From Pseudomonadota bacterium (lineage in GTDB: Bacteria > Pseudomonadota > Gammaproteobacteria > Burkholderiales > Burkholderiaceae_C), in assembly GCA_021805805.1 (NCBI GenBank), contig JAJZEB010000023.1, positions 1 to 35,855 on the forward strand: 35,855 nucleotides of DNA. Reading direction: 5' to 3'. Below, in pieces: positions 7,063-34,082 of the stretch (positions are counted from its first letter, which is position 1; each line of letters starts with the position of its first letter). The notes beneath the pieces are model-generated. The model saw only the letters and a list, made by a program, of their open reading frames with translations. It had not been told where the DNA came from and did no database searches. Both the position numbers and the translations under genes were made by a program.

Positions 7063-7980
7063 ATGACCGCGGTTATCCAGCACGGCACGCTCCCGAATTC
7101 CCGGGAATCGAATCGCCGCAGTCTGCGCGCAATACTCCGGGAGAAGCCATGCCTGCGGGTCATCGAGGCGCACAGCGCGATGTGCGCGATCCTGGCGGAT
7201 TCGGTCGGAATTCCGCACGAAGGCGACACGATCGAATATGACGCGTTCTGGTCGGGGTCGCTCACCGACGCGACCGCCAGGGGAAAGCCGGACTCTGGGG
7301 TTCTGGATATACGGCATCGCCTGTCGAACATCGATGAAATTCTCGACGTCACGCCGAAACCGGTGATTGTCGACGCAGACTCCGGGGGATATTCCGATCA
7401 TTTTGCGATCAACGTTCGCACGCTCGAGCGGCATGGTGTATCAGCCGTCATTATCGAAGACAAAACCGGATTGAAGAAGAATTCATTGCTCGGGAACACT
7501 GCGAAACAGGCCCAGGAATCGATTCCGGCGTTCTGCGACAAGATCGCGCGCGGCAAGCAGGCGCAGTCGACGCACGATTTCATGATCATCGCGCGCATCG
7601 AAAGCCTGGTGCTCGGCGCCGGCATGGGCGATGCGCTCGAGCGCGCGCGTGCCTATGTCGCCGCGGGCGCCGACGGCATCATGATCCACACGAATTGCCC
7701 GGAACCCGAAGAGGTCATCGAGTTCGCTGCGCAGTTCCGCGCCTTGCACCCGGGCATCCCCCTGGTGTGCGTTCCGACCCGGCTGGCCGGCGTGCGCTTC
7801 GACGAATTCGCGCGCCACCGTTTCAACGTCGTCATCTATGCCAACCAGTTGCTGCGCGCCGCCTACCCGGCGATGCGGCAGGTCGCTTTCGCGATCCTCA
7901 AGGACGGGCGCGCGCTGGAGGCCGAAGCGCATTGCATGTCGGTCGACGACATCCTGAGCCTGGTCCCAGGGACACGCTGA
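7063..7980 (+). CDS. Phosphoenolpyruvate mutase
   Basis: This enzyme makes the C-P bond of nearly all natural phosphonates, rearranging phosphoenolpyruvate to phosphonopyruvate. The 305-aa protein has the diagnostic EDKxxxKxNS motif at residues 132-141, which separates true PEP mutases from isocitrate lyase-family hydrolases. Other family features are the ADSVGIPHEGDT region, the Mg-binding IVDADSGGYSDHFAINV segment, and ARIESLVLGAGMGDALERARAYVAAGADGIMIH. ATG 7063 is chosen because GAGAGG lies 6 bp upstream; an in-frame upstream start at 7000 would lie in the promoter region. It is the first gene of a six-gene operon. The first part of the gene is less GC-rich than the rest, which may reflect transfer of the cluster. 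Confidence 0.95.
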   Translation: MTAVIQHGTLPNSRESNRRSLRAILREKPCLRVIEAHSAMCAILADSVGIPHEGDTIEYDAFWSGSLTDATARGKPDSGVLDIRHRLSNIDEILDVTPKPVIVDADSGGYSDHFAINVRTLERHGVSAVIIEDKTGLKKNSLLGNTAKQAQESIPAFCDKIARGKQAQSTHDFMIIARIESLVLGAGMGDALERARAYVAAGADGIMIHTNCPEPEEVIEFAAQFRALHPGIPLVCVPTRLAGVRFDEFARHRFNVVIYANQLLRAAYPAMRQVAFAILKDGRALEAEAHCMSVDDILSLVPGTR

Positions 7981-8000
7981 GACAACCCGGAGCCCGTGCC

Positions 8001-9161
8001 ATGGCCATTGCCGCGGATCGCTTCGTGGACCAGCTGGCGGAGCTGGGCGTGCACTGCGTGGCCGGAGTCCCGGACTCCGTGCTGCAAGCGCTCGGCATCG
8101 CGCTGGCGCGCGACGGCAGCCCCGTGCGCCATCGTGTCGCCTGCAACGAGGGCGCAGCGGTCGGCATGGCGATCGGCCATCACCTGGCCACAGGCGAGGT
8201 GCCGGCGGTCTACATGCAGAACTCCGGGCTGGGAAACGCGGTCAACCCGCTGGTGTCGATCGCGGCCGCCGACGTGTGCGCGATCCCGATGCTCCTGCTG
8301 GTCGGCTGGCGCGGCGAGATCGACGTCGCCGGCAGTCAGGTTGTCGATGAGCCGCAGCACGCCTTGCAGGGCAAGGTGACGCGGGGGCAGCTGGACCTGT
8401 TGGCGATCCGCCATGAGGTCGTCGGCGCCGATGTGGACGATGTGCGGCCGGTGCTGCAGCGTTTGCTGCGCCACGCGATCGATCGCCGCGAGCCGGTCGC
8501 CCTTGTATTTCGGCGCAATGCCTTCTCGGCAGGCGCCGAGCTGCCGGCGCGCGCGCGCGCCGCGTCGCGCGCGATGACGCGCGAACACGCCATCGAGGCC
8601 TGCCTGCGGGCCATTCCCCGCGGCACGGTCACCGTGACGACGACAGGCATGGCGGCGCGGGAACTGTTCGCGTTGCGCGACAAGCGAGGCGAGTCGCACG
8701 ACTTCGATTTCCTCGTCGTCGGCGCGATGGGACATGCCTCGCATATCGCGCTGGGCATTGCCGGCAGCCGGCAAGGCTGCGCAGTGGTCTGCCTGGATGG
8801 GGACGGCGCCGCGCTGATGCATCTGGGCGCCTTGCCGACGTGTGCGCGCGCGCCCGGCCTGGTCCACGTGGTGCTGAACAACGATGCGCACGAATCGGTC
8901 GGTGGGCAGCACACCTGCGTTCCGGGGCTGCGCTTCGCAAAGCTGGCGCGTGCCTGCGGTTACGCGAAGGTGTTCACCGTCCGCAGCGCGCAGGCGCTGG
9001 AAGCGATCGTCGCCGACGCCGTCGACGGCACCGGCAATTGTTTCATCGAAGTCATCTGCCGCGTCGGTCATCGCGCGGACCTGGGCAGGCCGACGGTTCG
9101 GCCAGGCGTCGCCAAGGAACAGTTCATGCGTGCCCTGCGGGGCGAATCCGGAGACCATTGA
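8001..9161 (+). CDS. Phosphonopyruvate decarboxylase
   Basis: This thiamine-diphosphate enzyme converts phosphonopyruvate to phosphonoacetaldehyde and CO2, pulling the unfavourable mutase reaction forward. The 386-aa protein has the N-terminal pyrimidine-binding part (GVHCVAGVPDSVLQAL, CNEGAAVGMAIGHHLAT with the catalytic Glu, and YMQNSGLGNAVNPLVS). The C-terminal diphosphate-binding motif starts at GDG (about residue 267) and ends at NN (GDG-x25-NN), followed by HESVGGQ. These match phosphonopyruvate decarboxylases rather than general acetolactate synthases. The length is typical. The ATG at 8001 lies 20 bp after the mutase stop. The stop TGA at 9159-9161 abuts the next gene's ATG, so the genes are coupled. 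Confidence 0.94.
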   Translation: MAIAADRFVDQLAELGVHCVAGVPDSVLQALGIALARDGSPVRHRVACNEGAAVGMAIGHHLATGEVPAVYMQNSGLGNAVNPLVSIAAADVCAIPMLLLVGWRGEIDVAGSQVVDEPQHALQGKVTRGQLDLLAIRHEVVGADVDDVRPVLQRLLRHAIDRREPVALVFRRNAFSAGAELPARARAASRAMTREHAIEACLRAIPRGTVTVTTTGMAARELFALRDKRGESHDFDFLVVGAMGHASHIALGIAGSRQGCAVVCLDGDGAALMHLGALPTCARAPGLVHVVLNNDAHESVGGQHTCVPGLRFAKLARACGYAKVFTVRSAQALEAIVADAVDGTGNCFIEVICRVGHRADLGRPTVRPGVAKEQFMRALRGESGDH

Positions 9162-10208
9162 ATGCGAGACGTGAAAGTTGTGGCGTCGAACGTTCGCGCG
9201 TTGACGCCGGCGATGCTCGGCGCATGCACGATCGCCCCGCATCCGGACGCTGCCGAAGGTGCCGTCGTGGTCGTCGAGGCGGTTTCGCGCGAAGGTTCGA
9301 TCCGTTCCGTCGAGAACCAGGCCGGGCGCGAGGTCGCGCTGTATCAAGGCGACCGTTTCGTCGGCGTTCTGGCCAACCGTCGCTCGAGCACGTCGGAGTA
9401 CGGCCACGTTCCGGCACCGTGCGCTCCCGGCGCGCTCCCGGAACTCGACCTGCTGTCGCACGGCGGAGTGATCGGGCAGGGATTGAGCATCCCGCCGTGT
9501 CGGGCGGCGTGCGGGTTCACCAAGGTCAAGGTGCTCGGTGCGCTGATGCACGGGGGGCGCGCGGTGTTCCTGCGCGACCTCTGTTCCGCCCCGGTCGCGC
9601 CGAGGCCGGCGCCTGCGGTCCCGACGATCCTGGTCTGCGGCAGCGCGGCCGAGGTCGGAAAGACCACCGCCTGCACGGCGCTGATTCGTGCGCTGAAGCG
9701 GCACGGGCTGAGCGTCGGCGGCGCCAAGCTCACCGGAACCGGCCGCCTGCGCGACATCCTCGGCATGCGCGATGCGGGCGCCGACCACGTGCTCGATTTC
9801 CCGTCGGTCGGTCTGGCCACGACGTATACGGCGCCCGCCGCGGTGCTCGACGCCGCGCGCGCCATCCTTTCCCACCTCGACTCGCGCGGGTGCGATATCG
9901 TCGTTGCCGAACTCGGCGGGGACATCATCGAAGCCTGCGCCGACCATCTGCTGCTGGATTCCGCGCTGGCGAAGCGGACCCACGCCATCGTCCACGTCGC
10001 AGGAGACGTCATCGGCATCATCGGCGCCGCCGAACTATACCGCCGTGCAGGACTGGCGGACCGTGTGCATCCGACCATCCCGAAGGACCGGAACCCGCTC
10101 GGAACGACCGAGCGGCTGCGCGCACTCGGCTGGACGGCGCTGGACGCGATGGATGCGGCCGCCTGCGATGCCTTCGTCGGCAGATGGATCGCGGGCGGCG
10201 ATGCTTGA
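9162..10208 (+). CDS. P-loop NTPase of unknown function in phosphonate operon (dethiobiotin synthetase/MobB/DUF1611-like fold)
   Basis: This 348-aa protein has two parts. The N-terminal part of about 150 residues contains VVVVEAVSREGSIRSVENQ, GVLANRRSSTSEY and GLSIPPCRAACGF; I do not recognise it. From about residue 155 there is a nucleotide-binding domain with Walker A GSAAEVGKTT at 160-169, followed by GGAKLTGTGRLRDILGMRDAGADHV, with VVAELGGDII as a Walker B-like segment and VHVAGDVIGIIGAAELYRRA. The layout resembles ATP-dependent ligase-like P-loop proteins such as dethiobiotin synthetase, and DUF1611 proteins, one of which I recall being described as an amino-acid N-acyltransferase. In this operon it is the only enzyme without an assigned step, so it is the best candidate for joining phosphonoacetate to an amino acid. 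That role is inference. It starts directly after the previous stop and overlaps the next gene by 8 bp. Confidence 0.8.
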   Translation: MRDVKVVASNVRALTPAMLGACTIAPHPDAAEGAVVVVEAVSREGSIRSVENQAGREVALYQGDRFVGVLANRRSSTSEYGHVPAPCAPGALPELDLLSHGGVIGQGLSIPPCRAACGFTKVKVLGALMHGGRAVFLRDLCSAPVAPRPAPAVPTILVCGSAAEVGKTTACTALIRALKRHGLSVGGAKLTGTGRLRDILGMRDAGADHVLDFPSVGLATTYTAPAAVLDAARAILSHLDSRGCDIVVAELGGDIIEACADHLLLDSALAKRTHAIVHVAGDVIGIIGAAELYRRAGLADRVHPTIPKDRNPLGTTERLRALGWTALDAMDAAACDAFVGRWIAGGDA

Positions 10209-10980
10209 CTCAGGACTCTGGCCCTCCGGCCTTCCGTGGCCGCATCCGGGAATCGGGCGCGAAGTCGCGTTCCTGTCGATCGTGCTTGTCTTCTCCGTCC
10301 TTTCGTCGGCTCTGGGAATCGGCGGCTTTGCCTTGCTGCCGCTGTTCGTTTGGCACTACGGCGCGAAGGCCGGCGTCACCGTCATCACCCTCTATTTCCT
10401 GTTCCAGAACGTCAGCAAGCTGGTGCTGCTGTGGCGTCACGTCGATTTCGCGGTGGCCTGGAAACTCGTCGCCTGGGCCGCACCGGGCGCGATCGCCGGA
10501 GGCGCGCTGCTGGTGGTGATTCCGGCGCAGCACTTCCAGCGCATCCTCGGCGCGGGGATCCTGCTGCTCGTGCTGGTGCCGCGCGTGCTGCCGAACCCAC
10601 GCCGGCCTTCGGCGACCATGCGGCGCGCAGGCTTTGCCTCGTTCGGTATCGCCTACGGCGTCGTCTCGGGCGTGCTCGGCAGCGGCAATGTGCTCAAGGG
10701 GCCGTTGCTGACGTCGATCGGAGTCCTCAAGGAACGATACATCGGAACCTACGCGCTGACCTCGCTGGCGTTGAACGTTCCGAAGCTCGTCGTCTACCAC
10801 GAGGGCGGCATCGCATCGTCCCAGCTGCTGGCCAGGTCATGGCCGCTTCTCGTCGTTTCGCTGACCGGCACCTATATCGGCAAGCGGGTCCTGCGCCACA
10901 TTCCCGATGCGGTGTTCGAGCGGGTGACGACGATCACGTTTGTCATTTCGGCACTTTTGATGATTCTGCTCCCGACATGA
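10201..10980 (+). CDS. TauE/SafE-family membrane transporter, putative phosphonate exporter
   Basis: This 259-aa integral membrane protein has about eight hydrophobic segments in the two-repeat pattern of the TauE/SafE (sulfite exporter) family. The first repeat contains SSALGIGGFALLPLFVW and the second GVVSGVLGSGNVLKGPLLTSIGV; the paired G-x-G-G/S motifs are typical. Family members move small organic anions such as sulfite, sulfoacetate and sulfolactate. A phosphonate-carboxylate product is a plausible analogue, and export is the likely direction in a biosynthetic operon; both are inference. ATG 10201 overlaps the upstream gene by 8 bp, and the stop overlaps the next start (ATGA at 10977-10980), so translation is coupled on both sides. 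Confidence 0.88.
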   Translation: MLDSGLWPSGLPWPHPGIGREVAFLSIVLVFSVLSSALGIGGFALLPLFVWHYGAKAGVTVITLYFLFQNVSKLVLLWRHVDFAVAWKLVAWAAPGAIAGGALLVVIPAQHFQRILGAGILLLVLVPRVLPNPRRPSATMRRAGFASFGIAYGVVSGVLGSGNVLKGPLLTSIGVLKERYIGTYALTSLALNVPKLVVYHEGGIASSQLLARSWPLLVVSLTGTYIGKRVLRHIPDAVFERVTTITFVISALLMILLPT

Positions 10981-12455
10981 ACGACATTTCCCGACACGCA
11001 GCGCCGACCGCCGGCTTTCGCAGCAGCGCTTTGCGGGCGGGCGACGAAGGTTCGCGCGTGGCCGGCGCGCGGTTGTCCGGGCCCGACAAGGTCGAGGTCA
11101 TCAACCCCCATGACGGCAGCGCGATCGCGACGCTCTCGGTCGCCGGCGCGGATGATGCCACCCGGGCGCTGGACCATGCGAGGACCTACCGCGCACGCCT
11201 GTCGCGGCACCGCAGGCGCGAGATACTGCTGCGCGCGGCGCAGGCGCTGGATTCCCGCTTCGACGAAGCGGCGACGCTGATCAGCCTGGAGTCGGGGCTG
11301 AGCCTGGTCGATACCGGGCGCGAGGTTCGCCGGGTGCTTGCCGTGCTGCAAACCGCTGCAGCGGAGTTGCTGCGCGACGATGCAGCCAGCTTCGCCGGCG
11401 ATACGACGCCTGAAGAAGCGCGGCGTCGGATCGTGACCAGCCGCGAACCGCTCGACGGCGCGATCCTTGCGATCACGCCGTTCAACCACCCGATGCACCA
11501 GGTCGCAGGCAAGGTCGTTCCTGCCGTCGCAACCAACAACAGGGTCGTGCTCAAGCCCTCGGAGAAGACCCCTCTTTCCGCGCTGTATTTTGCCGACCTG
11601 ATGCTCGATGCAGGGCTGCCTTCCCCGATGCTCCAGGTCCTGGTCGGACCTGCACCCAGCATCGTCGGTTGCCTGCTGCGCCGTCCGGAGATCGCGATGC
11701 TGAGCTTCACCGGAAGCGTCGAGACCGGGCGCATGCTCGCGTCGCGCACCGGCGCGCGGCGCCTGGTGCTGGAACTCGGCGGCAACGATGCGCTGATCGT
11801 GATGGACGACGCCGACGTGCAGCGGGCAGCGCTTCTCGCCGCCGAGGGTGCTTTCGCGAACTCCGGGCAGCGTTGCACCGCGGTCAAGCGCATCCTGGTG
11901 CAGCGGAGGCTGGCGGCGGATTTCACCGCCAGGCTTGCCGAGCTGACGGCGGAGTGGACCTGGGGCGATCCACGCACGACGCGCATCGGCACCGTCATCG
12001 ACGAAAGCGCAGCGCGACAGGTCGAGTCCAGGGTCGCTGCCGCGATCGACACCGGTGCGCGGCTGCTCGTCGGCCACCGCGTCGCCGGAGCCGCCTACGC
12101 GCCCACGGTCCTGGCCGAAGTCGACCCGGGAATGCGCCTGGTGCAGGATGAGACGTTCGGCCCGGTGGCGCCGGTCATCGCGTTCGACACCGTCGACGAG
12201 GCGATCGCGATCGCGAACGGAACCGCCTTCGGACTTTCCGCCTCGGTGTGCACGAACCGGCTCGACGTGATCGATCGCCTGTTCCACGCGCTTCGGGTCG
12301 GGGCGCTCAACGTCTGGGAGGTTCCCGGCTGGAGGACCGAACTGGCGCCATTCGGTGGAGTCAAGGCTTCCGGGCTCGGCGACAAGGAAGGCGTGCTCGA
12401 GGCAATGCGCGGGTACACCACGATCAAATCCCTTTCCATGCCTTGGGGGGCGTGA
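10977..12455 (+). CDS. phnY: Phosphonoacetaldehyde dehydrogenase (PhnY-like aldehyde dehydrogenase)
   Basis: This 492-aa aldehyde dehydrogenase should oxidise phosphonoacetaldehyde to phosphonoacetate with NAD(P). General family residues are the ELGGND motif with general-base E266 and the catalytic C300 in NSGQRCTAVKR. Features specific to the phosphonoacetaldehyde-type subgroup are ITPFNHPMHQVAGKV, the Arg just before the nucleophile (GQRC), and WRTELAPFGGVKASGLGDKEGV near the C-terminus. In known catabolic operons PhnY works with an AEP transaminase and the hydrolase PhnA; neither is present here. Sitting after PEP mutase and phosphonopyruvate decarboxylase, it would make the operon produce phosphonoacetate instead of 2-aminoethylphosphonate. 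The ATG overlaps the upstream stop, and the next gene starts 2 bp after its own stop. Confidence 0.9.
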   Translation: MNDISRHAAPTAGFRSSALRAGDEGSRVAGARLSGPDKVEVINPHDGSAIATLSVAGADDATRALDHARTYRARLSRHRRREILLRAAQALDSRFDEAATLISLESGLSLVDTGREVRRVLAVLQTAAAELLRDDAASFAGDTTPEEARRRIVTSREPLDGAILAITPFNHPMHQVAGKVVPAVATNNRVVLKPSEKTPLSALYFADLMLDAGLPSPMLQVLVGPAPSIVGCLLRRPEIAMLSFTGSVETGRMLASRTGARRLVLELGGNDALIVMDDADVQRAALLAAEGAFANSGQRCTAVKRILVQRRLAADFTARLAELTAEWTWGDPRTTRIGTVIDESAARQVESRVAAAIDTGARLLVGHRVAGAAYAPTVLAEVDPGMRLVQDETFGPVAPVIAFDTVDEAIAIANGTAFGLSASVCTNRLDVIDRLFHALRVGALNVWEVPGWRTELAPFGGVKASGLGDKEGVLEAMRGYTTIKSLSMPWGA

Positions 12456-12457
12456 CG

Positions 12458-13522
12458 ATGAACATGCAGCATCTGCTTTCGGTCGACCAGTTCGATCGCG
12501 ATCGCGTCGAAGCGCTGTTCGCGGTGGCGCGCGCGGCCGAGCCGGTGGCGCGACGCCGCAAGGTGTGCCGGGCCCTGGAAGGCGCGGTGCTCGGCAACCT
12601 GTTCTTCGAGGCCAGCACGCGTACCCGGATCAGCTTTGCCGCGGCGTTCTGCCGCCTCGGCGGCGCGGTGTGCGACACCACCGGGTTCACGTTCTCGTCG
12701 ATGGCCAAGGGCGAGTCGATCCACGACACCAGCCGGGTGATCAGCGGCTACGTCGACGCGCTGGTCGTACGCCACCCGGAGCGCGGCTCGGCCGCGCAGT
12801 TCGCGCAGGCCACCTGCATCCCGGTGATCAACGGCGGCGACGGACCGGGCGAGCACCCCAGCCAGGCGCTGCTCGACCTCTACACCATCGAGCGCGAGTT
12901 CGAGCGCGTGGGCCGCGAGGTCGACGGTGCGCATGTCGCGCTGATCGGCGACCTGAAATACGGCCGCACCGTGCACTCGCTGCTCAAGCTGCTGTCGCTG
13001 TACCGCGGCATGCGCTTCACGCTGATCGCCCCGCCCGGGCTTGAGATGCCGGCCGAGCTGTGCGCGGTCGTCGCGCGCCGCGGCCACCGGATCGACGTCC
13101 GCACGACGCTGCGCCAGCCCCTGGAGCAGCTCGACGTCGCGTACGCGACGCGGATCCAGCGCGAGCGGATCACCGACGAGGCGATCGACGGCTATACGCC
13201 CGAGTTCCGCGTCGACAAGGCGTTTGTCGATACCTGCTGCGGTCCGCGCACGGTGCTGATGCATCCGCTGCCGCGCGACAGCGCGCCCGGGGCCAACGAC
13301 CTCGGCACCGACCTGGACACCGACCCGAGAACGGCGATCTTCCGGCAGTCGGACAGTGGCGTGGCGGTGCGGATGGCGATTTTCGCGACCCTGCTCGGTG
13401 TCGACCAGAAGCTGCTCGGCCCGCTGCCGGACGCAGGCTGGCGCAGCCCGGAGCGCATCGGGCCCGATGATGCGCCGTTCTACACGCTGGCAGCGGCAAG
13501 CCGCGGCTTCGGAGCGGATTGA
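12458..13522 (+). CDS. pyrB: Aspartate carbamoyltransferase paralogue, putative self-resistance enzyme
   Basis: This 354-aa protein has a complete aspartate carbamoyltransferase active site. It has STRTR for carbamoyl phosphate at 53-57, MAKGES matching the 80s loop lysine, VVRHPERG, GDGPGEHPSQALLDL with the His and Gln, GDLKYGRTVHSL, the aspartate-binding TRIQRER at 231-237, and HPLPR at 269-273. The TRxQxER signature points to aspartate, not ornithine, as acceptor. The 240s loop region after HPLPR carries a longer DSAPGANDLGTDLDTDP stretch than in E. coli. No pyrI, pyrC or other pyrimidine gene is nearby. It is the last gene of the phosphonate operon, 2 bp after the dehydrogenase stop. Because PALA-type phosphonates inhibit this enzyme, an operon-borne copy is best read as a resistant or titrating target. 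Alternatively it could be a biosynthetic carbamoyltransferase. Confidence 0.92.
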   Translation: MNMQHLLSVDQFDRDRVEALFAVARAAEPVARRRKVCRALEGAVLGNLFFEASTRTRISFAAAFCRLGGAVCDTTGFTFSSMAKGESIHDTSRVISGYVDALVVRHPERGSAAQFAQATCIPVINGGDGPGEHPSQALLDLYTIEREFERVGREVDGAHVALIGDLKYGRTVHSLLKLLSLYRGMRFTLIAPPGLEMPAELCAVVARRGHRIDVRTTLRQPLEQLDVAYATRIQRERITDEAIDGYTPEFRVDKAFVDTCCGPRTVLMHPLPRDSAPGANDLGTDLDTDPRTAIFRQSDSGVAVRMAIFATLLGVDQKLLGPLPDAGWRSPERIGPDDAPFYTLAAASRGFGAD

Positions 13523-14256: not shown

Positions 14257-16533
14257 ATGGAAGACAGTGCCCAGCAGTACGACGCCATCGTGATCGGTTC
14301 CGGAATCGGCGGCCTGACCACCGCCGGTCTGCTGGCGGGCGTGGCCGGCAAGGCGGTGCTGGTGCTCGAGAAGCACACCGAGCCGGGCGGCCTTACCCAC
14401 GTCTTCCGGCGCGACGGCGCGTGCTGGGACGTCGGGCTGCATTACGTCGGCGAAGTCGGGCCGGGCTCGCAGCCACGCGCGCTGTTCGACTACCTGTCCG
14501 GCGGGGCGCTGCGCTGGAACCGGATGCCCGAACGCTTCGAGCGTTTCATCTACCCGGAGCTCGAATTCGCCGTGCCGTCCGACCCCGCCGCGTACGAGCG
14601 GGCGTTGTGCGACGCGTTTGCCGACGAGGCGCCGGCGCTGCGGCGCTATTTCGCCGATGTCCGCCGCGCCGCGAACTGGGCCCGGCTGGGATTCGTGCGC
14701 GCCATGGTCCCGCGGCCGCTGGAGCCGCTGCTGCGGCTGTGGCAGGGCCTGAGCGGCGGGCTGGCCACGCGGACCACCGGCGAGGTGCTTGCGGCACGCT
14801 TTCGTTCGCCGGCCTTGCGCGCGCTGCTCGCCAGCCAGTGGGGCGACTACGGACTGCCGCCGGCGCGCAGCGCATTCGCGATCCATGCCCAGGTCGTCGG
14901 CCATTACCTGCACGGGGCCTGGTTCCCCGAGGGCGGGGCGGGTCGCATCGCGCGCACGTTCGAGCCGGGAATCGAGCGCGCCGGCGGCGCGATCCGCGTC
15001 GGCATGGACGTGCAGGGCATCGTGGTCGAAGGCGGGCGCGCGATCGGCGTGCGGGTGCTTGATCGCCGCGGACCTGATCCGGTGGCGCGCACCTTCCGGG
15101 CGCCGGTGGTCGTGTCCGGCATCGGCGCGCAGGCCACGTTCACGCGGCTGCTGCCGACCGACGGCAGCGTCGGCGCGATGACCGCGGCGCTGCGCGCGCG
15201 GCTGCAGCGCCTGCGCGGCGGTCTGTCCGCGGTGACCCTGTACCTGCGCCTCGCTGCGGACCCGCGCAGCCTCGGCGTGCAGGGCGAGAACTACTGGATC
15301 CACGCCGGCTACGACCATGACGACATCGCAGGCCAGACCCGCGCGCTGGTCGGCGGGCGGCCGAGCAGCCTCTACGTGTCGTTTCCGTCGGTCAAATCAG
15401 GCGACTCGCTGGCGCATACCGCGGAAATCATCGCCTTTGTCGACGACGGGGTGTTCGCGCCGTGGCGCGACCAGGTCACGGGCGCACGCGACGCCGGCTA
15501 CGCCGCGCTGAAGCAGCGCATCGCCGACGGCATGCTCGAACGGGCCGATGCCCACATCCGCGGACTGGCCGCGCTGGTGTCGTACGCCGAACTGTCGACG
15601 CCGCTGACGGTCGAGCACTACACCGGTCATCCGGACGGTCATTTCTACGGGCTGCCGGCGACTCCCGAGCGCTATCGCGGCAATCGTCTGCCGGGCCCGC
15701 GCACGCCGATCCAGGGGCTGTACCTGACGGGGTCGGACGCCGGCTGCCTGGGCATCGTCGGTGCGATGATGGGTGGCGTCGGCGCCGCCTGCCAGGTGCT
15801 GGGCGGCAGCGCGTTCCCGCGGATCCGATCGGCCCTCAGGGCCGGCCCGGCGCCTGCCGCCGGCGGCGCGTTGCCGGCGGGGAAAAGCCGCGCGCGGCTT
15901 GTCGCACGAAGCGCGCTGACGCCTTCGATCTGGCAACTGGATTTCGATCTCGACGCGGCGCCGCCGGTGTGGGCGCCGGGGCAGTTCGCGCGGCTGCGGG
16001 TCGGCGATGCCCAGTGGCGCGACTATTCGATCGCCGGCTGCGACGCCGGCCGCCTGCGGCTGCTGGTCAGCACCCGCACCGGCGGTCACGGGTCGCGCTA
16101 CGCGCAAAGCGCCGCGGTCGGCATGTCGACCGAAATCGAGTTGCCGCTCGGGCGGTACCGGCTCAGCGGCAGCGACCGACGCCAGGTGTTCGTGGCCACC
16201 GGCACCGGATTGGCACCTTTGCTGCCGATGTTCGCCTCACTGCGACTCCGGGGTCGGCTGGCCGACGCGGTGTTGCTGTACGGCTGCCGGACGCTTGCCG
16301 ATGACATCACCACCCGGTTCGAGCCGCTACCCGGGCGCGTCGTCCGCTGCCTGAGCCGCGACGCCGCGCCAGCCGGCGGCTACGCCGGCCGCGTGAGCGC
16401 GGCGCTCGACGGCTTCGCATTCGACCCCGAGGCGACCGATTTCTATCTGTGCGGGTCGTCGGCCATGGTTGCGGACTGCCGCGCGCTGCTGCAGCAGCGC
16501 GGCGCGCACCACCTGTTCACCGAGCTGTTCTGA
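14257..16533 (+). CDS. Phytoene desaturase/retinol saturase-like FAD oxidoreductase fused to a ferredoxin-NADP reductase-type domain
   Basis: This 758-aa protein joins two modules. Residues about 5-520 are a CrtI/retinol saturase-type flavoprotein: the dinucleotide motif VIGSGIGGLTTAGLLAG near residue 12, EKHTEPGGLTHVF, WDVGLHYVG, and the C-terminal FAD-binding GLYLTGSDAGCLGIVGAMMGG. Residues about 542-758 form an FNR-like domain: GQFARLRV, the FAD motif RDYS at 588-591, GTGLAP at 649-654 for NAD(P)H, and YLCGSSAMV near 731. No 2Fe-2S domain is present. The reductase module would feed NAD(P)H electrons to the first flavin, so reduction (saturation) of a polyene or enone seems more likely than desaturation; this is inference. 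The gene is under a strong promoter and divergent from a TetR gene. Confidence 0.85.
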   Translation: MEDSAQQYDAIVIGSGIGGLTTAGLLAGVAGKAVLVLEKHTEPGGLTHVFRRDGACWDVGLHYVGEVGPGSQPRALFDYLSGGALRWNRMPERFERFIYPELEFAVPSDPAAYERALCDAFADEAPALRRYFADVRRAANWARLGFVRAMVPRPLEPLLRLWQGLSGGLATRTTGEVLAARFRSPALRALLASQWGDYGLPPARSAFAIHAQVVGHYLHGAWFPEGGAGRIARTFEPGIERAGGAIRVGMDVQGIVVEGGRAIGVRVLDRRGPDPVARTFRAPVVVSGIGAQATFTRLLPTDGSVGAMTAALRARLQRLRGGLSAVTLYLRLAADPRSLGVQGENYWIHAGYDHDDIAGQTRALVGGRPSSLYVSFPSVKSGDSLAHTAEIIAFVDDGVFAPWRDQVTGARDAGYAALKQRIADGMLERADAHIRGLAALVSYAELSTPLTVEHYTGHPDGHFYGLPATPERYRGNRLPGPRTPIQGLYLTGSDAGCLGIVGAMMGGVGAACQVLGGSAFPRIRSALRAGPAPAAGGALPAGKSRARLVARSALTPSIWQLDFDLDAAPPVWAPGQFARLRVGDAQWRDYSIAGCDAGRLRLLVSTRTGGHGSRYAQSAAVGMSTEIELPLGRYRLSGSDRRQVFVATGTGLAPLLPMFASLRLRGRLADAVLLYGCRTLADDITTRFEPLPGRVVRCLSRDAAPAGGYAGRVSAALDGFAFDPEATDFYLCGSSAMVADCRALLQQRGAHHLFTELF

Positions 16534-33150: not shown

Positions 33151-33166
33151 TGGCATGAGGTTTGCA
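33151..33166 (+). promoter_or_regulatory. Sigma-54 (-24/-12) promoter of the prp operon
   Basis: TGGCATGAGGTTTGCA is nearly the full sigma-54 consensus, with GG at 33152-33153 and GC at 33164-33165 separated by exactly 10 bp. Transcription would start near 33177, about 24 nt before the prpB ATG. Propionate operons of many proteobacteria are driven by sigma-54 with PrpR; no prpR gene is inside this window. Confidence 0.8.
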
Positions 33167-33200
33167 GCAGAGTGGATCGTCCGAACCCGAGGAAACTGCC

Positions 33201-34082
33201 ATGACGACTCCAGGAGCTGCCTTCCGCGCCGCGCTGCAAGCCGAATCGCCGCTGCAGGTGATTGGTGCGATCAATGCCAACCACGCGCTTCTGGCGCGCC
33301 GCGCCGGTTACCGCGCGATCTATCTGTCGGGCGGCGGCGTCGCCGCCGGCTCGCTGGGCATGCCCGATCTGGGCATCAACACCCTCGACGACGTGCTGAC
33401 CGACGTGCGCCGCATCACCGACGTCTGCGACCTGCCGCTGATCGTCGACATCGACACCGGCTTCGGCCCCAGCGCGTTCAACATCGCGCGCACGGTCAAG
33501 AGCCTGATCAAGTTCGGCGCCGCCGGCTGCCATATCGAGGACCAGGTCGGCGCCAAGCGCTGCGGCCACCGCCCGGGCAAGGAAATCGTCCCGGCGGCCG
33601 AAATGGCCGACCGCGTGCGCGCCGCGGCCGACGCGAAGACCGACCCGGACTTCTTCCTGCTCGCGCGCACCGACGCGCTGGCGGTCGAGGGCCTGGAGCC
33701 GGCGCTCGAGCGTGCCCGGCTGTGCGTCGAAGCCGGCGCCGACGGCATCTTCGCCGAGGCCGTTCCGGACCTGGCGACCTACAAGCGCTTCGTCGACGAA
33801 CTCGGCGTGCCGATCCTGGCCAACATCACCGAGTTCGGCAAGACGCCGCTGTTCACCCGCGACGAGCTGGCGTCGGTCGGCGTGGCCATCGCGCTGTACC
33901 CGCTGAGCGCCTTCCGCGCCATGAACAAGGCCGCCGAAATGGTCTACGAGACCCTGCGCCGCGACGGCACCCAGAGTGCGATCATCGACCAGATGCAGAC
34001 CCGCGACGAACTCTACGATCGCATCGGCTACCACGCCTACGAACAACGCCTCGACGCCGTTTTCGCGTCGGGCCGCAAGTGA
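33201..34082 (+). CDS. prpB: Methylisocitrate lyase
   Basis: This 293-aa isocitrate-lyase-family enzyme cleaves 2-methylisocitrate to pyruvate and succinate, the last step of the methylcitrate cycle for propionate use. The catalytic Cys is C121 in the [12 protein letters not shown] loop. [17 protein letters not shown] carries the metal-binding acids, and [16 protein letters not shown] and [14 protein letters not shown] are family-typical. ATG 33201 is chosen because GAGGAA lies upstream and the in-frame start at 33162 falls within the sigma-54 promoter. First gene of prpB-prpC-acnD. Confidence 0.95.

Follow-up and report, generated by a model that had tools for sequence, protein, structure and literature searches.

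A phosphonate gene cluster with a second aspartate carbamoyltransferase in a Burkholderiaceae_C genome: a possible route to N-phosphonoacetyl-L-aspartate

Why does a bacterial gene cluster for phosphonate synthesis end with an aspartate carbamoyltransferase (ATCase)? Such a cluster lies in the stretch of 35,855 nucleotides analyzed here (the window; JAJZEB010000023.1, positions 1-35,855 of assembly GCA_021805805.1; Pseudomonadota, Burkholderiales, Burkholderiaceae_C), where six adjacent genes on the plus strand occupy positions 7063-13522. The last of them, named ATC below, encodes a second ATCase of the genome. A sequence-only reading had interpreted the six genes as an operon that makes N-phosphonoacetyl-L-aspartate (PALA) or a close analogue, exports it and protects its host with the extra target enzyme. 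PALA is described in passages of PMC8931299 as the classical ATCase inhibitor. Our results partly support this interpretation. We put the probability that the cluster makes and exports PALA or a close derivative, with ATC as a self-protecting enzyme, at roughly one half.

The six genes are as follows. Junctions and gene ends were taken from the window sequence, and families were named by curated profile cut-offs.

7063..7980, plus strand: pepM, phosphoenolpyruvate (PEP) mutase, 305 aa; TIGR02320, 370.9 bits (cut-off 319.55)
8001..9161, plus strand: ppd, phosphonopyruvate decarboxylase, single chain, 386 aa; TIGR03297, 425.9 bits (cut-off 312.5)
9162..10208, plus strand: P-loop protein, BioD/DUF1611-like, 348 aa; proposed ATP-dependent N-phosphonoacetyl-aspartate synthetase
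10201..10980, plus strand: TauE/SafE-type membrane protein, 259 aa; PF01925, 81.3 bits (cut-off 32.6); proposed exporter
10977..12455, plus strand: PhnY-like phosphonoacetaldehyde dehydrogenase, 492 aa; TIGR03250, 630.2 bits (cut-off 635.65)
12458..13522, plus strand: ATC, ATCase of the PRK11891 type, 354 aa; NF008853, 583.9 bits (cut-off 560); proposed self-protection enzyme

These are the families that the sequence-only reading had listed; five of them were named by family searches, and the P-loop protein has no curated family. The tight spacing that it described was also read from the sequence: pepM and ppd are 20 bp apart, ppd and the P-loop gene abut (0 bp), the P-loop gene overlaps the TauE gene by 8 bp and the TauE gene overlaps the dehydrogenase gene by 4 bp, and 2 bp precede ATC. 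The translation of pepM carries EDKTGLKKNS, which is the EDKxxxKxNS motif, and its TIGR02320 score confirms it as a PEP mutase; phosphonopyruvate hydrolase was ruled out (TIGR02321, only 122.4 against a cut-off of 374.4). The identities of ppd, the TauE protein and ATC hold in the same way, each over its family cut-off, and ATC also passes TIGR00670 (287 against 236.95). For the dehydrogenase, the best NCBIfam model is indeed phosphonoacetaldehyde dehydrogenase, but the score falls just under the cut-off. Its closest solved structure is 4i3t (E 3.5e-119; runner-up 1e-71), which we take to be PhnY of S. meliloti. The cluster thus has the two marks of a phosphonate biosynthetic cluster, a PEP mutase of the mutase equivalog and a driving second step, the decarboxylase.

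From the named families and printed precedent, the PEP mutase and phosphonopyruvate decarboxylase would lead to phosphonoacetaldehyde, which the PhnY-like dehydrogenase would convert to phosphonoacetate. This part of the earlier claim has support in print, since passages of PMC12723261 give the same PepM-Ppd-Adh path to phosphonoacetate for other clusters. The P-loop protein may then join ATP-activated phosphonoacetate to the amine of aspartate, as suggested by its likeness to BioD, its clade and the position of related proteins in arginine operons (below). The TauE protein, judged by its family, would export the product.

It is very improbable that the gene set is catabolic or serves phosphonate storage instead of antimetabolite production. 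PhnY is known from phosphonate breakdown, and TauE-type proteins are general anion carriers, both of which would suit such a role. In contrast, pepM and ppd belong to equivalogs that build phosphonates, no match to an aminotransferase family or to one that cleaves C-P bonds was obtained for any of the six genes, and ATC has no evident role in breakdown.

We compared 28 genomes of the window's genus. A P-loop protein of the same clade (348-666 bits) was found in seven of them, whereas eight others reach 82-95 bits at most. Among the seven are at least three close relatives (L040, L041 and L042, all metagenome-assembled genomes), which were met when species-genome contigs were scanned with an alignment of the window protein and a Priestia protein described below. 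Gene order is identical across the seven clusters as far as the contigs extend. Three sets are complete (the window, L040 and L132), and contig ends truncate L042 inside pepM, L133 inside ppd and L134 inside the P-loop gene, all of which agree with the order from there on. ATC is the last gene in all seven clusters. PEP mutase heads the cluster in the four genomes whose contig reaches the full gene (window included), its 3′ end is visible in a fifth, and two contigs begin further in. A conserved association of the carbamoyltransferase with PEP mutase, which had been named beforehand as the point on which the earlier interpretation could fail, is therefore present in the genus.

ATC is also the best conserved cluster gene in all six genus comparisons. 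Its identity to the window copy is 86, 83 and 74% in L040, L041 and L042, respectively, against 74, 68 and 49% for the P-loop protein; pepM identity is 78% in L040, 71% in L041 and 72% in L132. In every cluster gene non-synonymous changes are rarer than synonymous ones (pN/pS, their ratio, 0.24-0.53 for the window against its relatives). Four flank genes of the window had no match in the fetched stretches of the six other cluster loci, some of which are short. When the flanking open reading frames were compared all against all, genes were shared only by L041/L132 and by L133/L134, plus one match between L041 and the window at 38%. Within the sequence available at these loci, the unmatched flank genes rule out the cluster as a piece of a larger conserved block. 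Evenly spread samples of 369 genomes of the class and 300 of the order held no clade P-loop protein outside the own genome (next best 110 and 118 bits), and the two positives in 200 genomes of the family were both genus members already counted.

As controls, we took from the class sample of 369 genomes all 33 non-window places listed with a TIGR02320 match of E 1e-50 or better, 27 of them over the cut-off. A decarboxylase match was present at 25 of these PEP mutase-like loci. At E 1e-5, none of the 33 matched the P-loop proteins, the five carbamoyltransferase queries, the dehydrogenase or TauE, with four contigs shorter than 8 kb and neighbours there partly unseen. For the ATCase, 14 of the 29 loci outside the genus were inspected, of which 10 pass the PRK11891 cut-off. 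None of the 14 showed a match to PEP mutase, the decarboxylase, the P-loop protein or TauE, and hidden phosphonate clusters are thereby ruled out for the PRK11891-type genes inspected; one of the 14 loci has two ordinary aldehyde dehydrogenases (29%). The PRK11891 cut-off is exceeded in only 12 of 398 genomes of the phylum, the own genome included.

The window's genome contains three carbamoyltransferase genes: argF beside an argD-like gene, pyrB in a pyrR-pyrB-pyrC-like run, and ATC, whose product is about 30% identical to the own PyrB. The neighbourhoods of argF and pyrB were read by eye from translations. With pyrB and argF elsewhere in the genome, ATC is ruled out as the sole ATCase of the cell. 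The three other cluster genomes checked all have pyrB (91-98% to the own copy), argF (84-94%) and ATC; a fourth carbamoyltransferase is present in genome G1020. Thus, a duplicated target together with the housekeeping enzyme was found in the own genome and in the three others. Fourteen ligand or catalytic residues of ATC, chosen by E. coli ATCase numbering, were checked (see below), and eight positions, none among the 14, separate the seven cluster copies from 29 relatives, the residue recurring in no more than one relative. ATCases can vary in their sensitivity to PALA, the malarial enzyme being poorly inhibited according to passages of PMC8931299.

Cluster-type ATC (at least 67% identity) occurs in 12 of the 28 genus genomes, and five of these are without the clade P-loop protein at E 1e-15. 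The five are drafts, 92-95% complete, in which the genome-wide check covered the P-loop gene alone. Three have enough flanking sequence to judge; in G1233 and G1237 the contig end cuts ATC. Neither G1225 (9 kb upstream available) nor G1234 (2 kb upstream) has a cluster gene next to ATC; in both, the pathway may have been lost or may never have been present. A search for cluster-gene remnants upstream of the lone ATC in loci L243 and L244 gave only chance-level matches (E 0.02 or worse). In G1240, the end of a dehydrogenase gene matching that of L042 is followed directly by ATC. The two loci share 94% DNA identity over 1704 bp, from the dehydrogenase tail past ATC, and their ATC genes are separated by 19 synonymous changes and 11 non-synonymous ones (pN/pS 0.20), some of them possibly older than the loss.

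In the ATC tree the three lone copies fall inside a ten-member group (support 97/99). The G1240 copy stands beside that of L042 (100/99), and the other two are paired (96/87) next to the remaining cluster copies. Two lone copies have Ser instead of Ala at position 70. A lone ATC, in one genome next to a dehydrogenase relic, is an arrangement that a resistance gene might show. If ATC confers immunity, it would be expected to persist after the producing genes are lost, and a dedicated biosynthetic transferase would hardly be kept. The extra ATCase would then sustain pyrimidine synthesis both in the producer and in kin holding ATC alone, if it is resistant. The search of G1225 (genome 95% complete) gave no housekeeping pyrB at the limit applied, so an ordinary pyrimidine role for the lone ATC is possible there. 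Two further features of these loci were observed. The flanks of L243 and L244 are homologous, with repeated and inverted segments, which suggests that this locus is rearranging or mobile. A Fic/DOC family gene (L245:6941-8122) lies near the lone ATC with the dehydrogenase relic.

The P-loop protein reaches no curated family cut-off. It has sub-threshold matches alone, to the AAA_26, CbiA, BioD, CobB and MobB models; against the dethiobiotin synthetase model TIGR00347 it scores 21.7 where 83.3 is needed, and against solved dethiobiotin synthetases E is 0.004. For DUF1611 (PF07755; gathering score 25), the window protein was not listed at E 0.001, and its relatives in L040 and L042 score 16.9 and 20.1. 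A P-loop followed by a K-x-TG motif is shared with BioD, an ATP-dependent enzyme, and with DUF1611; unlike these, the window protein is under every curated cut-off and has an additional N-terminal half. The P-loop and the downstream K-x-TG are kept across 31 relatives, and the five phosphonate-linked proteins have K-x-TGTG, save for one Ala/Ser-type change preceding the motif. In a tree of 38 P-loop proteins with 200 bootstrap trees, the four genus proteins used and one from Priestia megaterium form a single group (99/97), with one change in 100% of the bootstrap trees. Caution is due over the place of the Priestia protein among the genus members, given its long branch and a composition that departs from that of the alignment.

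This Priestia protein, the best plasmid match of the P-loop protein, is encoded on plasmid NZ_CP085446.1 (locus L038) in the following cluster, which is bordered on each side by an IS6-family transposase gene.

L038:4688-13376: PEP mutase-like gene, two-gene decarboxylase, P-loop protein, ornithine carbamoyltransferase (OTCase)-like protein, two ATP-grasp ligases, M20 peptidase and luciferase-like monooxygenase

The Priestia cluster resembles that of the window in its PEP mutase-like gene, its decarboxylase (split in Priestia), its same-clade P-loop protein and its carbamoyltransferase. It differs in that the carbamoyltransferase is of the ornithine type, two ATP-grasp ligases and an M20 peptidase are present, and the luciferase-like monooxygenase takes the place of the aldehyde dehydrogenase. 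Alignment with ordinary OTCases showed that the OTCase-like protein is altered at motifs which we take to be those named HCLP, SMG and 80s-loop. Since these motifs are changed, it may be a resistant or altered enzyme. N-phosphonoacetyl-ornithine (PALO) is a bisubstrate analogue used on OTCase, according to passages of PMC7004355. The Priestia cluster, which was not met in the open-licence literature searched, is possibly a cluster for a PALO peptide. The strongest hint at the product in the window is this pairing: one P-loop clade accompanies different carbamoyltransferases, and each of these has a matching known phosphonoacetyl inhibitor.

Twenty P-loop relatives outside the clade, mostly the best-scoring ones of the class and order samples, were also examined. 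Within the fetched stretches none is accompanied by PEP mutase, and six are accompanied by a carbamoyltransferase. These six fall in a seven-member clade (100/99) whose seventh member lies on a 4.8 kb contig; the tree settles no branching order among this clade, the phosphonate clade and a third group. The six stand in arginine operons (L180, L191 and L194, also L176, L181 and L189). At L191, hidden Markov models named argC, an argD-like transaminase (under cut-off), N-acetylornithine carbamoyltransferase (over cut-off), argB and argH as neighbours; argG was named at L194 and N-acetylornithine carbamoyltransferase at L180, the two examples of this last enzyme that were examined both being over cut-off. 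The remaining arginine-operon genes were read by eye and with BLAST.

Full-length ArgA was not detected in these six genomes, where TIGR01890 matches the kinase part alone, in a search that did not extend to short or ArgJ-type enzymes. In two of them a further match, weak and short (23-28 bits), falls on the ArgA acetyltransferase part. The window's genome has a full ArgA by the same model. Because full-length ArgA was not detected there, the P-loop protein of the arginine operons may supply N-acylglutamate, and its genes are candidates for a new N-acylglutamate-forming enzyme. The operon context suggests N-acylation of amino acids by the P-loop relatives. Together with DgcN, a DUF1611-type protein that N-acetylates D-glutamate, it makes N-acylation of an acidic amino acid a natural guess for the window protein. 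We propose, tentatively and at somewhat less than even odds, the wider scheme that PALA and PALO are natural antimetabolites, each made separately in bacteria through a hitherto unassigned family of BioD/DUF1611-like P-loop enzymes that form N-acyl amino acids, that the same family supplies N-acylglutamate in ArgA-less arginine operons, and that the carbamoyltransferase is an immunity gene kept after production is lost.

Several observations weigh against the PALA proposal. The product is a prediction from the genes, and the activity of the P-loop protein is a prediction from weak similarity. Its structure model is poor (predicted local distance difference test, pLDDT, 57.6). The best Foldseek match of this low-confidence model is BioD, the top matches mix dethiobiotin synthetases with signal recognition particle GTPases, and the fold assignment was dropped (template modelling score on the query 0.32-0.38 to BioD entries). 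DgcN, a characterized relative that we take to be of the DUF1611 type and to N-acetylate D-glutamate, is described as an acetyltransferase and not a ligase; the passages checked on DgcN cover D-glutamate conversion without DUF1611. The 14 checked residues of ATC are invariant in the seven cluster copies and the same in the 29 relatives, save position 81 (Ala in ten relatives), so that no active-site resistance mutation is visible among these residues. No relic accompanies the other two lone ATC genes, and the relic in G1240 lies at most 0.7 kb from a contig end, some 0.6 kb of unrelated sequence standing between them. The dehydrogenase is just below the PhnY cut-off in all six genomes that hold it. 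In the remaining cluster, L041, only a 45-residue tail of it is retained, and that genome is without another PhnY-grade enzyme (next best 323 bits). Since L132 shares flanks with L041 (most matches 87-96%) and is complete, either the dehydrogenase was lost recently or the assembly has a gap. For the Priestia parallel there is one record, with no second such plasmid among 72,556. The PEP mutase of the Priestia cluster scores 318.3 with TIGR02320, under the cut-off of 319.55, the OTCase-like protein falls short of every family cut-off, and sulfopyruvate decarboxylase models give the decarboxylase subunits higher scores, likewise below cut-off. On balance, the idea of an antimetabolite with self-protection fits the Priestia cluster, the lone ATC genes and the arginine-operon relatives, but the unchanged ATC ligand residues and the cluster without the dehydrogenase do not speak for it.

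The intact active site of ATC would also suit a biosynthetic carbamoyltransferase. The P-loop protein would then make an acyl phosphate of phosphonoacetate, from which the ATCase-like enzyme would transfer the phosphonoacetyl group to aspartate, and self-protection would play no part. The co-occurrence of carbamoyltransferase and P-loop genes in both clusters, and the deviation of the Priestia OTCase-like protein at its three motifs, are consistent with this. On the other hand, sister genomes hold ATC without the clade P-loop gene, in one case beside the dehydrogenase relic and with few non-synonymous changes, where such a transferase would have no substrate. In the arginine operons, moreover, the carbamoyltransferase has a role of its own as N-acetylornithine carbamoyltransferase. 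We consider a biosynthetic role doubtful.

Known systems provide precedents for parts of the PALA proposal. According to passages of PMC12723261, actinomycete phosphonoacetate clusters (Streptomyces sp. NRRL F-525 and Kitasatospora fiedleri) share PepM, Ppd and a PhnY-like aldehyde dehydrogenase that lead to phosphonoacetate. Their Ppd is encoded by two genes, whereas it is a single chain in the window, and the F-525 product is O-phosphonoacetic acid serine and not an aspartate amide. The terms carbamoyltransferase and phosphonoacetyl are absent from the main text of that paper. The phaseolotoxin cluster combines an antimetabolite against a carbamoyltransferase with a second carbamoyltransferase for self-protection, the resistant OTCase ArgK (passages of PMC4530439). 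Unlike the proposed system, in which a C-P phosphonate warhead would act on ATCase, phaseolotoxin is a sulfodiaminophosphinyl-ornithine peptide, and its cluster has 23 genes. Thus, the phosphonoacetate route and carbamoyltransferase self-resistance are already known, and we did not find in print their combination with an ATCase and the P-loop family. A natural PALA or PALO pathway, or an ATCase together with this P-loop family, was not among the matches listed in the open-licence literature, subscription papers being outside the search.

The serine compound shows that another conjugate is conceivable. The cluster may make phosphonoacetate joined to a different amino acid, an ester, or plain phosphonoacetate, with ATC as an ordinary second ATCase carried along. 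A phosphonoacetate-serine natural product of another cluster is in print (PMC12723261, citing Freestone 2017), and the product in the window is predicted from its gene content. PRK11891-type ATCases elsewhere sit away from phosphonate genes, and ATC occurs without the clade P-loop gene in five genus genomes, three of them judgeable. Against an ATCase merely carried along, ATC ends 7/7 clusters and is the best conserved gene in every genus comparison, and a matching OTCase-like gene is present in another phosphonate cluster whose P-loop protein is of the same clade. We regard such a product as unlikely.

Work on PALA, as a drug candidate and as a transition-state analogue, goes back to the 1970s. 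If the PALA proposal is true, this textbook synthetic inhibitor is also a natural weapon, and the cluster is a biosynthetic route to it. The paired carbamoyltransferases, aspartate-type here and ornithine-like in Priestia, would then suggest a general rule by which DNA reveals what a phosphonate cluster is aimed at. A first function would also be assigned to the P-loop family, and in the lineages without a detected ArgA this family would be linked, in a testable way, to the opening step of arginine synthesis.

Two other genes of the window were noted. The protein encoded at 33162-34082 is another member of the PEP mutase/isocitrate lyase superfamily (PF13714, 156.9 bits), about 30% identical to the pepM product over most of its length, and has no TIGR02320 match at E 1e-50. 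At 14257-16533, a protein of 758 aa has a carotenoid isomerase/desaturase-like FAD domain fused to a ferredoxin-reductase-like domain.

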